Assembly: GCF_000785105.2 (NCBI RefSeq)
Contig: NZ_CP018906.1
Location: forward strand, 558,001 to 622,000
DNA: 64,000 nt
Direction: 5' to 3'
From: Lentilactobacillus curieae
GTDB taxonomy: Bacteria; Bacillota; Bacilli; Lactobacillales; Lactobacillaceae
Shown piece by piece: positions 7,021 through 14,015 of the stretch (its first letter is position 1; each line of letters begins with the position of its first letter). The notes under the pieces are model-generated. The model had not been told where the DNA came from. It was given only the letters and a program-made list of their open reading frames with translations, and searched no databases. The position numbers and the translations under genes are program-made.

Positions 7021-8896
7021 AGTAGTACTTAACCTCCTGCATTGCTGGTTTTTCAGTTCTGTCAGCGAACATGATTCCGTCTCCTGAGAACTCGTAATCT
7101 GAATGGCGTTCATCAAAATCGCCACCGTAACGTAATACCTGTTTTCCCGAAACTGCATCGGTTACAAATAACGCTTGATCAATGAAGTCCCAGATAAATC
7201 CGCCTGAGTATCCTTGATGCTTATCATACAGTTTCATATATGAATCCAGGCCACCCATTGAGTTTCCCATGTCATGCATGAATTCACAGCTCAAGAATGG
7301 CTTTTTAGGATTGTTGGTCAAATAGTCATCTACATCCTTTGGTGGGAAGTACATCATACTTTCAACATCCGAAATTTGATCCTCATACTTACGGTTACGG
7401 CAGACCCCTTCGTAGTGAGTAAGTCGGCTTGAGTCCATTTCTTTGTAGTATTTGTCCATAGCCGCAATATCGTCACCTGCATAGGATTCGTTTCCTAATG
7501 ACCAGAATAAAATGCTGGTATGGTTTTTAAACGTTTCGTAGTTATTCTTGGCGCGATCTAGCACAGCTCCCAGCCACTTAGGTGACGAACCAGGAACGTT
7601 GTATGAAGGCTCAACCGCGCCCATTTTTTGCCATGACCCATGAGATTCAAGGTTGTTTTCTGCCATCATATAAATTCCATTTTGGTCACACATGTAGTAC
7701 CAAGGAATTTGGTCTGGATAGTGACAGGTCCGAACAGCATTAATATTGTTGTCCTTAAACGTCTGCATGTCCGCTTGCATATCAGCAAGTGTGATTGCTC
7801 TTCCTGAGTGGGCATCCCATTCATGACGGTTAACCCCATTTAATTTGAGGCGTTTACCATTTAGCAAAATTACCTTATCTTTAATTTCAATTTTTCGGAA
7901 ACCAAAGTCGTAAGGAACAATCTCCATCAATGATCCGTCAGCATCCCTAACTTCAATCGTCAAAGAATACAAATATGGATCAATATTATCCCAAAGATGA
8001 ACACCATCTAGGGCACCTGACTTAAACTCAATTGTTTCACCAGCTGTCTTTTCATCACTGAAAACGACATTGCCTTCAGCATCCACCGCATTCAATTTAA
8101 CAGTGGCACCAGTCAAATCCGCGCCAGTTAACTTAGTGGTTGCTGAGAGTTGGCCAGTCTTAAAATCATCAGATAACGTTGGTTTAATCGTCAAATCCTC
8201 AACATGTGCCTTAGGACGGGCAATCAGGTTAACACTCCTAAAGATTCCAGAAAAACGGAACATATCCTGATCTTCTAGGAAGGAGGCAGTACTGTGCTTA
8301 AACACCTCAACAGCTAAAACATTCTTTCCATCTTCGTTAAGGTATGGTGTCAAATCGTACTCAGAAGGCGCAAAGCTGTCTTCGCAATAACCAATAAAGT
8401 TACCGTTGATCCAGATAAACATAGCGCGTTCGACACCCTCAAACTCTACGCTAACCCGTTGATTCTTAAAGTTATCAGGAAGTTCGAACTCTTTGACGTA
8501 AGAGCCGACAGTATTATCTAGTCCTTTACTAAACATCCCTGCTTGTGGATCAGTCTCATCCGGAACATATGCTGGTCGTCTAAAAAACTTTCCTTCCCAA
8601 GGATACAAAGTGTTGATGTACTGAATTTGACCATACCCGTTCAACTCGATGTGAGACGGAACCTTAATGTCGTCAAAGTCACTGACATCAAAACTCGTTT
8701 GGTAAAAATTTTGTGGTCTGTCCATCGGCGTCTTAGAAAATTTAAATTTCCAGGTACCGTTTAAACTTTTAATTAAACTTGATTGATGTTCCTTTAACTC
8801 ACGATAATTCGCGTAAAATCGGTGGTCACTATGAATTGGAATTTGGCCGACTCGAAAAGTTTCCGGATCGTCTAACCATGTAATGTCTGGTGTCAT
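7001..8896 (-). CDS. lacL: Beta-galactosidase large subunit LacL
   Basis: 631 residues of glycoside hydrolase family 2: sugar-binding jelly roll (to about 230), immunoglobulin-like domain (about 235-335) and TIM barrel. The acid/base Glu470 is in FWSLGNES and the nucleophile Glu538 in [11 protein letters not shown]. With LacM it makes the active enzyme. AGGAG precedes the ATG. The gene follows lacS by 77 bp, a gap that contains a promoter and a cre site, so it can be transcribed separately from lacS under catabolite control. Confidence 0.96.
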
Positions 8897-11951: not shown

Positions 11952-11992
11952 AAAATAAAAGCCCCCAGAAGTTTTCACTTCTAGGGGCTTTA
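11952..11992. terminator. Bidirectional terminator
   Basis: An inverted repeat with arms AAAGCCCC-x-AGAAGT and ACTTCT-x-GGGGCTTT. T runs occur on both sides, so it ends both the AraC-type gene (plus) and the candidate small RNA arriving on the minus strand. Confidence 0.85.
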
Positions 11993-12135
11993 TTCTCTAC
12001 TTTAATAGTTAAAATGATGTCAGCTAAGTTCACTCAATCGTTGTTTTCACTTGTTCATACATTTTGGGGGAGATGAATAATTATGAAGAGATGAGATCAC
12101 TCATGATGGTCGAGCCATCAACCATTTAACTAAGT
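11953..12135 (-). ncRNA. Candidate CiaR-box-driven small RNA, copy 1
   Basis: Predicted about 183-nt transcript: promoter with a CiaR-like box at 12142-12174, start near 12135, end at the terminator at 11953. The 5' part can form two hairpins (GATGG/CCATC and ATGAG/CTCAT). It then carries CTCTTCAT and, 10 nt on, CTCCCCC (12072-12066), complementary to an ATG context and a Shine-Dalgarno sequence. No convincing ORF is present on this strand. The second candidate at 12315-12499 has the same order, nearly the same length and a shared 5' segment (TTAAAT, then GGTTGA). This architecture parallels the cia-dependent csRNAs of streptococci. Confidence 0.5.
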
Positions 12136-12141
12136 GTCTAT

Positions 12142-12174
12142 ATAGTAACTTGCTTACCTTAAGCCAACCTTAAA
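12142..12174 (-). promoter_or_regulatory. CiaR-like box 1 with -10 element
   Basis: Minus strand: TTTAAG (12174-12169), 5 nt, CTTAAG (12163-12158), 10 nt, then TACTAT (12147-12142). This fits the streptococcal CiaR consensus NTTAAG-N5-WTTAAG and its spacing to the -10, apart from C at the W position of the second half-site. An additional TTAAAC half-site lies one turn upstream. Confidence 0.6.
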
Positions 12175-12255
12175 TTGGTTTAAGTTTTTTTCTGAATTCT
12201 TTTTTGGGGAAACCTAAAAACTAAGCGCATACCTTCTTTCTTTTAGGATGACTAC

Positions 12256-12288
12256 ATAATATATTCTGAAGCTTAAATGAAGGTTAAG
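12256..12288 (-). promoter_or_regulatory. CiaR-like box 2 with -10 element
   Basis: Minus strand: CTTAAC (12288-12283), 5 nt, TTTAAG (12277-12272), 10 nt, then TATTAT (12261-12256). One half-site deviates at the last base. The transcript would start near 12249 and run toward box 1; it contains TTTCCCC but I see no terminator of its own before box 1, so its 3' end is unclear. Confidence 0.5.
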
Positions 12289-12314
12289 TTTGGCAATTAT
12301 ATTTAATCTTTCCC

Positions 12315-12358
12315 AAAAGAAAAACCGATTCCTGCTTCAAGGGAATCGGCTTATTTTT
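12315..12358. terminator. Bidirectional terminator between small RNA units
   Basis: CCGATTCC (12325-12332) pairs with GGAATCGG (12342-12349). TTTTTCTTTT follows on the minus strand and CTTATTTTT on the plus strand. It would end small RNA copy 2. Confidence 0.8.
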
Positions 12359-12499
12359 AAGTTTTAAATTAAATGATGGATCTTGGAGTCAACGGATTGT
12401 ATTTTCTACGATTTAATATATTGGGGGAGTAAATGAAGAGTTTCTACAATTTGTTATTAAGAGGGGGTGTTGGCTCCAATGCTTCAACCATATTTAATT
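12315..12499 (-). ncRNA. Candidate CiaR-box-driven small RNA, copy 2
   Basis: Predicted about 185-nt transcript from the promoter at 12506-12538 to the hairpin at 12315-12358. Like copy 1 it carries a TTAAAT and GGTTGA segment near the 5' end and then CTCTTCAT followed by CTCCCCC (12429-12423), about 70 nt from the predicted start and about 110 nt from the 3' end. An additional C run (ACACCCCCTC) lies just upstream. The repeated anti-Shine-Dalgarno plus anti-start-codon design suggests a translation-blocking RNA. Expression is inferred from promoter and terminator only. Confidence 0.5.
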
Positions 12500-12505
12500 G
12501 TGTTT

Positions 12506-12538
12506 AATTTACATCTTCTAACTTAAAACTAGCTTAAA
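12506..12538 (-). promoter_or_regulatory. CiaR-like box 3 with -10 element (perfect consensus)
   Basis: Minus strand: TTTAAG (12538-12533), 5 nt, TTTAAG (12527-12522), 10 nt, then TAAATT (12511-12506). Both half-sites are identical to the streptococcal CiaR consensus. Confidence 0.65.
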
Positions 12539-12650
12539 AGTTAAAAATATTTTTTAGGCGTTGAAGAACACTGAGTTGTTATCCACATTTGTGGTTAATT
12601 TGTTGTGGTATTGTTTCGAGAGTGTTTTGACCATTTATTTTATTTAGAGG

Positions 12651-12752
12651 TTAATACCGTGCTGATATTTTGTGAATCGAACTTGTGGCAACAGCAACCG
12701 CAGCGATAATTGCGGCTGTGCCTGCAGTGATAATTAGTGTTTTATTTTTCAT
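12651..12752 (-). CDS. Small hydrophobic peptide, 33 residues
   Basis: ATG 12752 to TAA 12651, with AAAGGAAG upstream at proper distance. The sequence starts MKNKTLIIT, continues as an Ala/Ile/Val-rich membrane segment (about residues 5-23) and ends with the basic tail SSIHKISARY. It could be a single-span membrane peptide or a signal-peptide-like export product; I do not recognise a family. It lies about 90 nt downstream of the fourth CiaR-like box and is the only coding sequence I can support in this cluster. No terminator is evident before box 3, so its mRNA may continue into the small RNA region. Confidence 0.55.
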   Translation of the reverse strand: MKNKTLIITAGTAAIIAAVAVATSSIHKISARY

Positions 12753-12841
12753 ATAGTAACTTCCTTTCATTAATCGACTTCAGCGAGTGCTGATGGCTAT
12801 GAACTAAGTTGATTCACTCCTTTCGCTTATTGATTGTTTGT

Positions 12842-12874
12842 AGAATACAGTGGCTAGCTTAAGCCAAGTTTAAA
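12842..12874 (-). promoter_or_regulatory. CiaR-like box 4 with -10 element
   Basis: Minus strand: TTTAAA (12874-12869), 5 nt, CTTAAG (12863-12858), 10 nt, then TATTCT (12847-12842). It is positioned to drive the 33-residue peptide gene. Confidence 0.55.
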
Positions 12875-12913: not shown

Positions 12914-12963
12914 AAGGAGATAAGCCAGTCGTCAGATTTCTAGTGACGATTACTTATCTCCTT
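12914..12963. terminator. Long hairpin terminator after the glycosylase gene
   Basis: AAGGAGATAAG pairs with CTTATCTCCTT, with an inner GTCGTCA/TGACGA stem. T-rich sequence follows on the minus strand, and on the plus strand ATTTTTT. It overlaps the stop codon of the glycosylase gene. Confidence 0.75.
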
Positions 12964-13588
12964 ATTTTTTCAATAGTTCCCTCAACTTCCGCGAATCCTC
13001 ATCCACCACCGGTTTCATTGCCTTAAACCTCTTTGAATATGATGGGTGGTACAACGGAAAAATGTCGTACTTATTTTTAGTCCATTCAAACTTGCCGGTC
13101 GCTTCATTGAAATGTTGGACAGACTCATTGAGCAACTGTCCATGGAGCTCGCCGACTTTAGCATCCTTCCCCAAAAGTCGCTGGAGACTAGCGTTGCCCA
13201 TCGTGACCAATAATTTATCTTTAAACTGCACCAGTTCGTAATCAAACATTGGCGCATACGCCTTCACTTCTTTGTTATTAGGGCGACGGTCACTTTTTAA
13301 ACCAGATTTTCCAACCCTAAACGGTCTAGCACTGACTACCCCAAAGATGTAAACATCTTCTCTGGTCAGCCCAAGTGAGTCAAGCCAGCGATCCAGTTCC
13401 TTACCGGAAGGTCCCTGAAATGGATGGCCAAGCTCAATCTCCTTGGCACCAGGTGCTTCACCTAAAAGCAAAATTTTCGGGTTCATACCACCTTCCCCGG
13501 CAACAAAACCCTCTAAATTATCAAACTTTTCGGATTGTTCCTTACCCCATTTTATCCATTCTGGAGTTAGTACTGTTTGAATTGACAA
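12962..13588 (-). CDS. Uracil-DNA glycosylase family protein
   Basis: 208 residues. The sequence GEAPGAKEIELGHPFQGPSGKELDRWL is the water-activating and uracil-pocket region of the family 4/5-like glycosylase superfamily, and LYHPSYSKRF is the His-containing DNA-insertion motif. The four iron-sulfur cysteines of classical family 4 enzymes are absent, so this belongs to the cluster-free branch common in lactobacilli. It removes uracil from DNA in base excision repair. TTG 13588 is preceded by GAGGTG; the in-frame ATG at 13627 lacks a ribosome binding site. Confidence 0.88.
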   Translation of the reverse strand: MSIQTVLTPEWIKWGKEQSEKFDNLEGFVAGEGGMNPKILLLGEAPGAKEIELGHPFQGPSGKELDRWLDSLGLTREDVYIFGVVSARPFRVGKSGLKSDRRPNNKEVKAYAPMFDYELVQFKDKLLVTMGNASLQRLLGKDAKVGELHGQLLNESVQHFNEATGKFEWTKNKYDIFPLYHPSYSKRFKAMKPVVDEDSRKLRELLKK

Positions 13589-14015
13589 GTTGATCACCTC
13601 GTTATTTGAATTTATAGTAACTAACACCCATAAATACCGTCACATCAATATTTAAATCATACCAAAATTCCTCTAGTTTTTATAATTCTTAGCTTTTCAA
13701 CTCATTCTTTACATACTCATAATCGCGCTTAACTGTCGTTCAGCACATTACATAATTACAAATTAGTATTTTTTACATATAGTTTCCAAAAATGAGGTGT
13801 GAACAACTTTTACGGGGCTTTTTAAATATGTTATTTTTTATCAACTTCTAATTAAATCAACTTTATTTTCGTTTTTTTACCAATCCGTGTAACCGAACAT
13901 TTTAAATATAAGGGCAATATATATGTCGTGATTAGGTGTTAGATGCTAATTTTTGCGGGATTTATCATTAACATCAAAATGTGATAAGTTGCAGTTTTTA
14001 TAATCGTTTTATAAT

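Follow-up and report, generated by a model that had tools for sequence, protein, structure and literature searches.

A cluster of CiaR-type promoter boxes with predicted anti-Shine-Dalgarno small RNAs in Lentilactobacillus curieae

The stretch of DNA analysed here, hereafter the window, comprises 64,000 nucleotides (C1:558001-622000 of the 2,095,860-bp genome, one contig). Behind a gene for uracil-DNA glycosylase it harbors a compact series of promoter boxes, a small open reading frame (ORF) and two predicted small RNAs, with the following features given in window positions:

12962..13627, minus strand: uracil-DNA glycosylase gene, neighbour of the cluster (family 4 by best match, below the model cut-off)
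12842..12874, minus strand: box 4 and its -10 element, promoter of unit A (TTTAAA-CTTGG-CTTAAG-N10-TATTCT)
12651..12752, minus strand: small ORF of unit A, 33 aa (MKNKTLII...), preceded by AAAGGAAG, from the ORF list
12506..12538, minus strand: box 3 and its -10 element, promoter of small RNA B (TTTAAG-CTAGT-TTTAAG-N10-TAAATT)
12316..12499, minus strand: predicted small RNA B, about 185 nt, its start inferred from the -10 element and its end from the terminator
12421..12429, minus strand: CUCCCCCAA module of B, predicted to pair with the Shine-Dalgarno (SD) sequence and AUG of the mRNA of a CAP-domain protein (C1:1323357)
12325..12349, minus strand: terminator hairpin of B, with CCGATTCC, a 9-nt loop and GGAATCGG, then a T-rich tail
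12256..12288, minus strand: box 2 and its -10 element, promoter C (CTTAAC-CTTCA-TTTAAG-N10-TATTAT)
12142..12174, minus strand: box 1 and its -10 element, promoter of small RNA D (TTTAAG-GTTGG-CTTAAG-N10-TACTAT)
11953..12135, minus strand: predicted small RNA D, about 180 nt, with relatives in L066, L067 and L068
12064..12076, minus strand: UCAUCUCCCCCAA module of D, exact complement of a site covering the SD of a PgdA-like deacetylase gene and the nucleotides just after it (C1:788271-788283)
11958..11991, minus strand: terminator of D, strong in the terminator scan

The initial annotation had described four paired repeats in this region, and they are present where it placed them, as TTAAG-N6-TTAAG on the minus strand within 732 bp, each followed exactly 10 nt past the second half-site by the -10 hexamer that it had named (TACTAT, TATTAT, TAAATT and TATTCT). 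Two of the four match TTAAG-N6-TTAAG-N10-TANNNT perfectly and two have one mismatch, which in boxes 2 and 4 replaces the G of that box's first half-site (TTAAC and TTAAA). As matched by this pattern, box and -10 element together cover 12142-12173, 12256-12287, 12506-12537 and 12842-12873. This G is called "extremely important" for activation in the accessible part of the streptococcal work (PMC3091779), and its absence from two boxes counts against reading the region as the hub of a CiaR-type regulon. Genome-wide, the pattern has 6 matches without mismatch versus 1 for the reversed control pattern, and 19 versus 16 with at most one mismatch, four of these 19 being the boxes described here; a lone one-mismatch box thus means little. 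Chance is excluded for the clustering of the four boxes, the Poisson expectation for four minus-strand sites within 732 bp being about 5e-8. As a side observation, at 12158-12184 the repeats of box 1 combine with a third half-site into a palindrome that has a run of seven T behind it on the plus strand. This scans as a plus-strand terminator, and the site may serve both roles.

The four boxes had been proposed to drive minus-strand units of a small-RNA/peptide cluster, a view that stands with two corrections. B and D do look like small RNAs and A is a peptide ORF, but not every box starts a small RNA of its own: no terminator was found between promoter C and that of D, so that C probably feeds D and box 2 is probably a second, upstream promoter for it. 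C was rejected as an independent small RNA, its fold being no better than those of shuffled sequences and no terminator being found before box 1. Neither A nor C had a convincing terminator of its own in the terminator scans; a stem ending 146 nt into unit A, reported by a looser script, lies inside the small ORF, is absent from the main terminator list and was not counted. The terminator of B ends about 181 nt into the RNA; the main scan, restricted to 8-nt loops, gives the 9-nt-loop hairpin of B for the plus strand alone. The fold of B has a z score of -2.6 versus shuffles and that of D one of -4.6 (0 of 200 shuffles as stable), with both C runs of B and the C runs of D unpaired in the predicted folds. 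The ORF of unit A has a good ribosome-binding site and a hydrophobic middle, from which a membrane peptide is inferred as probable; no NCBIfam match was obtained for its 39-aa form, nor any Pfam match for residues 1-33 of that form. A homologous box precedes an A-like unit in the relatives G013 (L067, 1 mismatch) and G208 (L066, 2 mismatches). An Rfam scan of the whole window at gathering score gave no match.

As far as the accessible text goes, the search that defined the csRNAs of streptococci tolerated a single mismatch in each half-site, though not at the G, and called for a distance of ten to the -10 element and a terminator within 250 nt (PMC3091779). B and D satisfy these rules, with both G intact. 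A fails them through its G mismatch and lack of a convincing terminator, and C through its G mismatch and a terminator 293 nt on. The further csRNA criterion, an unpaired stretch complementary to the SD and start codon, is fulfilled in prediction, by B over SD and AUG and by D over the SD.

The initial annotation had seen no ciaRH pair in the window, and indeed all seven OmpR-type regulators found in the genome lie outside it. The genome search that it suggested revealed a CiaRH-like pair at C1:526223-528234:

C1:526223-526906: CiaR-like response regulator gene, with the kinase gene directly after it

This regulator is 56% identical over 222 aa to a regulator of Streptococcus pseudopneumoniae whose recognition helix is the published CiaR helix, and the kinase encoded next to it is 32% identical over 436 aa to the kinase adjoining that streptococcal gene. 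The recognition helix VIEVYMSNLRKKI shares 8 of 13 residues with the CiaR helix VVEVYVSKVRKKL; it is of the same type and outside the range reported for streptococci, where the available portion of PMC3091779 gives only V/I replacements. The best 80 loci in a scan of named genomes, a sample of the matches, comprised one Companilactobacillus (59%), six Streptococcaceae (53-56%) and a remainder at 44% or less. A tree of 49 rows (L013 was left out as no regulator was parsed, and outside sampling was limited) joined the lactobacillus regulators and streptococcal CiaR in one group with support of 88/93 (100/95 with one clostridial row), the five other regulators of this genome that were included falling outside; within the group, the branching order was unresolved and the lactobacillus rows did not form one clade. 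Judged from sequence, the regulator belongs with streptococcal CiaR, apart from the other OmpR-type regulators, and has a CiaH-type kinase as its partner. No CiaR-named family was present among 25 of the 37 NCBIfam families given for the regulator. The patchy distribution of the regulator in the family Lactobacillaceae weighs against a CiaR-type regulon hub.

The exact pattern was counted in 201 genomes of the family grouped by best regulator identity, and the box was enriched only where a close CiaR relative was present. In the 51 genomes whose regulator reaches 57% identity or more there were 149 matches versus 22 for the control; the counts were 16 versus 4 in 13 genomes at 53-56%, 10 versus 21 in 44 genomes whose best relative was at 48-52%, and 13 versus 35 in 93 genomes without a regulator match at E <= 1e-60. 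The rank test gave p = 5e-19, which is not a true probability since the genomes are related. Similarly, the stricter TTTAAG-N5-WTTAAG was counted 75 times versus 4 for the control in 24 genomes of the genus, being present in 23 of them. In 25 of 30 loci, including that of this genome, the surroundings of the regulator gene (about 1.5 kb on each side) contain a box with no more than one mismatch, where about 0.03 per locus would be expected at the genome control density. In a second set of 20 regulator loci, of which 16 were parsed (L222, L224, L225 and L237 were dropped), a box was found in the 400 nt upstream of 7 of the 10 with a CiaR-type helix and of none of the 6 with a diverged helix.

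Binding of the regulator to NTTAAG-N5-WTTAAG is inferred, being supported only by this co-occurrence and by conserved position, without binding data. Direct repeats with an 11-bp period are general for OmpR-type regulators, and six others are encoded in the genome, so that another of them, such as WalR or PhoP, could read the boxes and the resemblance to CiaR sites be coincidental; given that the 93 genomes lacking a close CiaR relative show no enrichment of the box, any more than do the 44 at 48-52%, and that it sits beside the CiaR-type gene itself, we hold this to be very improbable.

The initial annotation had also proposed looking for further boxes before -10 elements, and these occur by a YkcB-like operon beside ciaR, before secreted proteins and before htrA. 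Outside the cluster, perfect boxes stand before the genes of an acyltransferase and of two small proteins whose starts are signal-like. Boxes with one mismatch, some of which will be due to chance, stand before htrA, before the divergent operon for YkcB-like and family-2 glycosyltransferases beside ciaR, and before the genes of a WxL-domain protein and a further protein that looks secreted. The two glycosyltransferase genes (L015:8817-11039 and 7794-8804) are divergent to ciaR with the box in between, an arrangement also seen in Companilactobacillus nantensis (L139). At C1:522710-522763 (about 7711-7764 of L015) two boxes overlap, so that four half-sites follow one another, upstream of the gene for a 167-aa protein that looks secreted, and small secreted-looking proteins lie downstream of boxes in several genus members. 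At C1:321993-322070 (L016) a perfect box has a strong hairpin close behind it and the next gene on the other strand, perhaps a minimal csRNA-like transcript. According to the part of PMC8317062 available, the CiaR regulon of S. pneumoniae includes htrA, several wall-related genes and five csRNAs. The one-mismatch box upstream of htrA in this genome is kept in G013 and G208; in G208 (L262) htrA matches in two pieces, the second with an in-frame stop. An htrA box with at most one mismatch is nevertheless found in only 6 of 24 genus genomes (G210 does not cover the htrA start), so that a genus-wide htrA link is only partly supported, which also speaks against the hub.

The cluster was also sought in related species, another check put forward at the outset. 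In the three closest genomes, G208, G013 and G215, the uracil-DNA glycosylase gene is immediately followed by a box-driven RNA that carries the same C-rich motif (UUCAUCUCCCC(C)A or AAUCUCCCCCCAA). Tandem boxes are found in further genus members as well, and in G082, G180, G199, G201, G205, G206, G212 and G213 boxes lie about 9-20 kb from this gene on the same contig. Where inspected, the boxes of these further members often drive a secreted-looking protein, followed by transcripts carrying repeated ACCCCUCAA modules and a terminator. Of the 13 genomes that have the CAP-domain gene, 9 show such boxes on the other strand no more than about 4 kb from it; this does not apply to the present genome.

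Behind the boxes of 13 genus loci (L119-L128, L130, L131 and L137), an ORF of about 27-42 aa was noticed whose end is conserved and FKY...VVWSCY-like; it possibly encodes a secreted or sensed peptide. The same pattern found no such ORF in L065, the locus of the window's own cluster. A W(S/R)CY-ending ORF in 13 of the 20 regions fetched from relatives, together with the ribosome-binding site of unit A, lends some credit to the idea that the units are mainly mRNAs of small peptides, the C-rich stretches being leader or terminator features and not antisense modules. This appears unlikely for the present cluster, as the ORF list contains no minus-strand ORF of at least 30 aa inside B or D, both end in terminators, and the pairing with the deacetylase leader co-varies in two relatives, as detailed below.

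Candidate targets were sought in the genome with the complement of the D module. Among 13 places with at most one mismatch, one was D itself and four were at start regions, namely those of a secreted PgdA-like deacetylase (exact match; below the PgdA model cut-off), a secreted CAP-domain protein (weak Pfam match), a gene that we take to be likely that of phosphopentomutase, and an alcohol dehydrogenase. Since the deacetylase and CAP leaders of this genome came from that search, made with the sequence of D itself, their pairings are selected. A genome-wide excess of TTGGGGGAGATGA (66 versus 21 for the control at up to 2 mismatches) was set aside, being due in part to three places inside coding frames and to five identical copies, presumably in 23S rRNA genes.

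Duplex energies of full-length RNAs gave long, meaningless structures, and module-level energies were used instead. D with the deacetylase leader reached -31.0 kcal/mol and B with the CAP leader -30.6 kcal/mol, the latter covering SD and start codon; in both cases none of 500 shuffled leaders was as low, and the best of 49 window genes reached -23.5 kcal/mol. An independent test, the own pairs being selected, is offered by G208 and G013, whose deacetylase leaders differ in letters from that of this genome. The G208 leader reached -29.4 with the G208 RNA (0 of 500 shuffles as low) and -19.0 with the RNAs of this genome; that of G013 reached -31.0 with the G013 RNA (0 of 500) and -22.3 with those of this genome, and it paired better still with the G208 set (-35.1). 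The deacetylase pairing thus co-varies in part, being kept in G208 and G013 though both partners have changed. In G215 it is absent (-16.7, 83 of 500 shuffles as low, own RNA last of 13 sets); the CAP pairing of that genome reaches -24.6 (0 of 500 shuffles as low).

Ranks of the cognate RNA among 13 sets were 1, 1, 2, 13, 1, 1, 11, 4, 10, 9, 13 and 10 for 12 deacetylase leaders (from 12 of 20 genomes; G202, G203, G204, G206, G211, G212, G213 and G214 were dropped) and 1, 4, 6, 1, 3, 1, 1, 1, 9, 11 and 6 for 11 CAP leaders (11 of 13 genes; G202 and G214 were dropped), with ties produced by near-identical RNAs. A cognate preference across distant genus members was not found for several leaders. 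The CAP leaders of nine further genomes beat their shuffles in five cases (0-3 of 200 as low), in one of which the best module sits beyond the terminator, and not in four (61-103 of 200). The pairing might therefore be no more than generic complementarity between C-rich RNAs and SD sequences, with B and D having other targets or binding a protein, as the leaders for which the cognate RNA is not the best partner and the four unremarkable CAP leaders would suggest. We regard this as doubtful, though less so than the other two alternatives: the energies of -29 to -31 in the own pairs, G208 and G013 lie well under the lowest value among the 49 window genes (-23.5), and none of the 500 shuffles came as low.

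The initial inference that a CiaR-type regulator stands behind the cluster proved largely right, with a CiaRH-like pair in the genome, further boxes and conservation in relatives. We estimate at roughly three in four the probability that the region is the hub of a CiaR-type regulon with anti-SD small RNAs, in which binding, activation, signal, transcript ends and repression are all inferred. By homology, the CiaH-like membrane kinase and the CiaR-like regulator (C1:526223-528234) would respond to an envelope signal. Phosphorylated CiaR would then bind the direct repeats, which take the position of a -35 element, 10 nt ahead of the -10 element (the binding is inferred, the architecture observed), and would presumably switch on transcription. 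The expected transcripts are the mRNA of the 33-aa peptide (A), small RNA B, and small RNA D with tandem promoters C and D. Through their exposed C-rich stretches, B is predicted to pair with the SD region of the CAP-domain mRNA and D with that of the mRNA for the PgdA-like peptidoglycan deacetylase, a prediction with comparative support, and the pairing may block translation of these envelope enzymes, a repression that is likewise inferred. The mode of action would be like that of streptococcal csRNAs.

LhrC RNAs are multicopy small RNAs with UCCC-type loops under an envelope-stress two-component system. In Listeria, they are controlled by LisRK (PMC4132741, from the part available); the present RNAs are similarly multicopy, with UCCC-type loops, and by inference under an envelope-stress two-component system, but differ in the regulator and in the absence of an Rfam match in the window. 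Closer likeness exists with streptococcal CiaRH and csRNAs, as far as the accessible parts of PMC3091779, PMC8186281 and PMC8317062 describe them: the same repeat and 10-nt distance to the -10 element, a terminator within 250 nt (B and D), several small RNAs in one genome, stretches complementary to SD sequences, homologues of both CiaR and CiaH, and htrA as a possible target. On the contrary, the present system belongs to Lactobacillaceae, lacks Rfam matches in the window, has its regulator gene adjoining a YkcB-like glycosyltransferase operon, has wall enzymes as predicted targets and, in other genus members, several repeated C-rich modules per RNA.

In the portions available, these three csRNA papers treat CiaRH as streptococcal, and PMC3091779 states that it was not found outside streptococci. 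The names CiaR and CiaH are used for annotated genes in Leuconostoc carnosum genomes (PMC7829361) and Lacticaseibacillus paracasei transcriptomes (PMC12346395), according to what could be consulted of both. No description of CiaR boxes or CiaR-dependent small RNAs in Lactobacillaceae was found in titles and abstract openings, subscription journals being mostly uncovered. We lean towards the broader view, with some reserve, that CiaRH with anti-SD small RNAs is an older or exchanged envelope-stress module of Lactobacillales, which in Lactobacillaceae acquired small RNAs in tandem, with several modules each, that co-evolve with the ribosome-binding sites of a PgdA-like deacetylase and a CAP-domain protein as wall enzymes, and recruited WSCY peptides of about 30 aa. 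A lactobacillus CiaR regulon provides a second lineage for asking what the system senses and why it needs more than one anti-SD RNA, with envelope targets that can be tested. Lactobacillaceae have two regulator groups, one accompanied by the box and one not, whose helices differ accordingly; they form a natural experiment on DNA-binding specificity. The second of these CiaR-related groups (L219, L220, L229, L232, L233 and L238) carries a helix of the VVNIY(L/I)NNLRRKL type and has no box in the 400 nt upstream, which suggests an altered DNA specificity.
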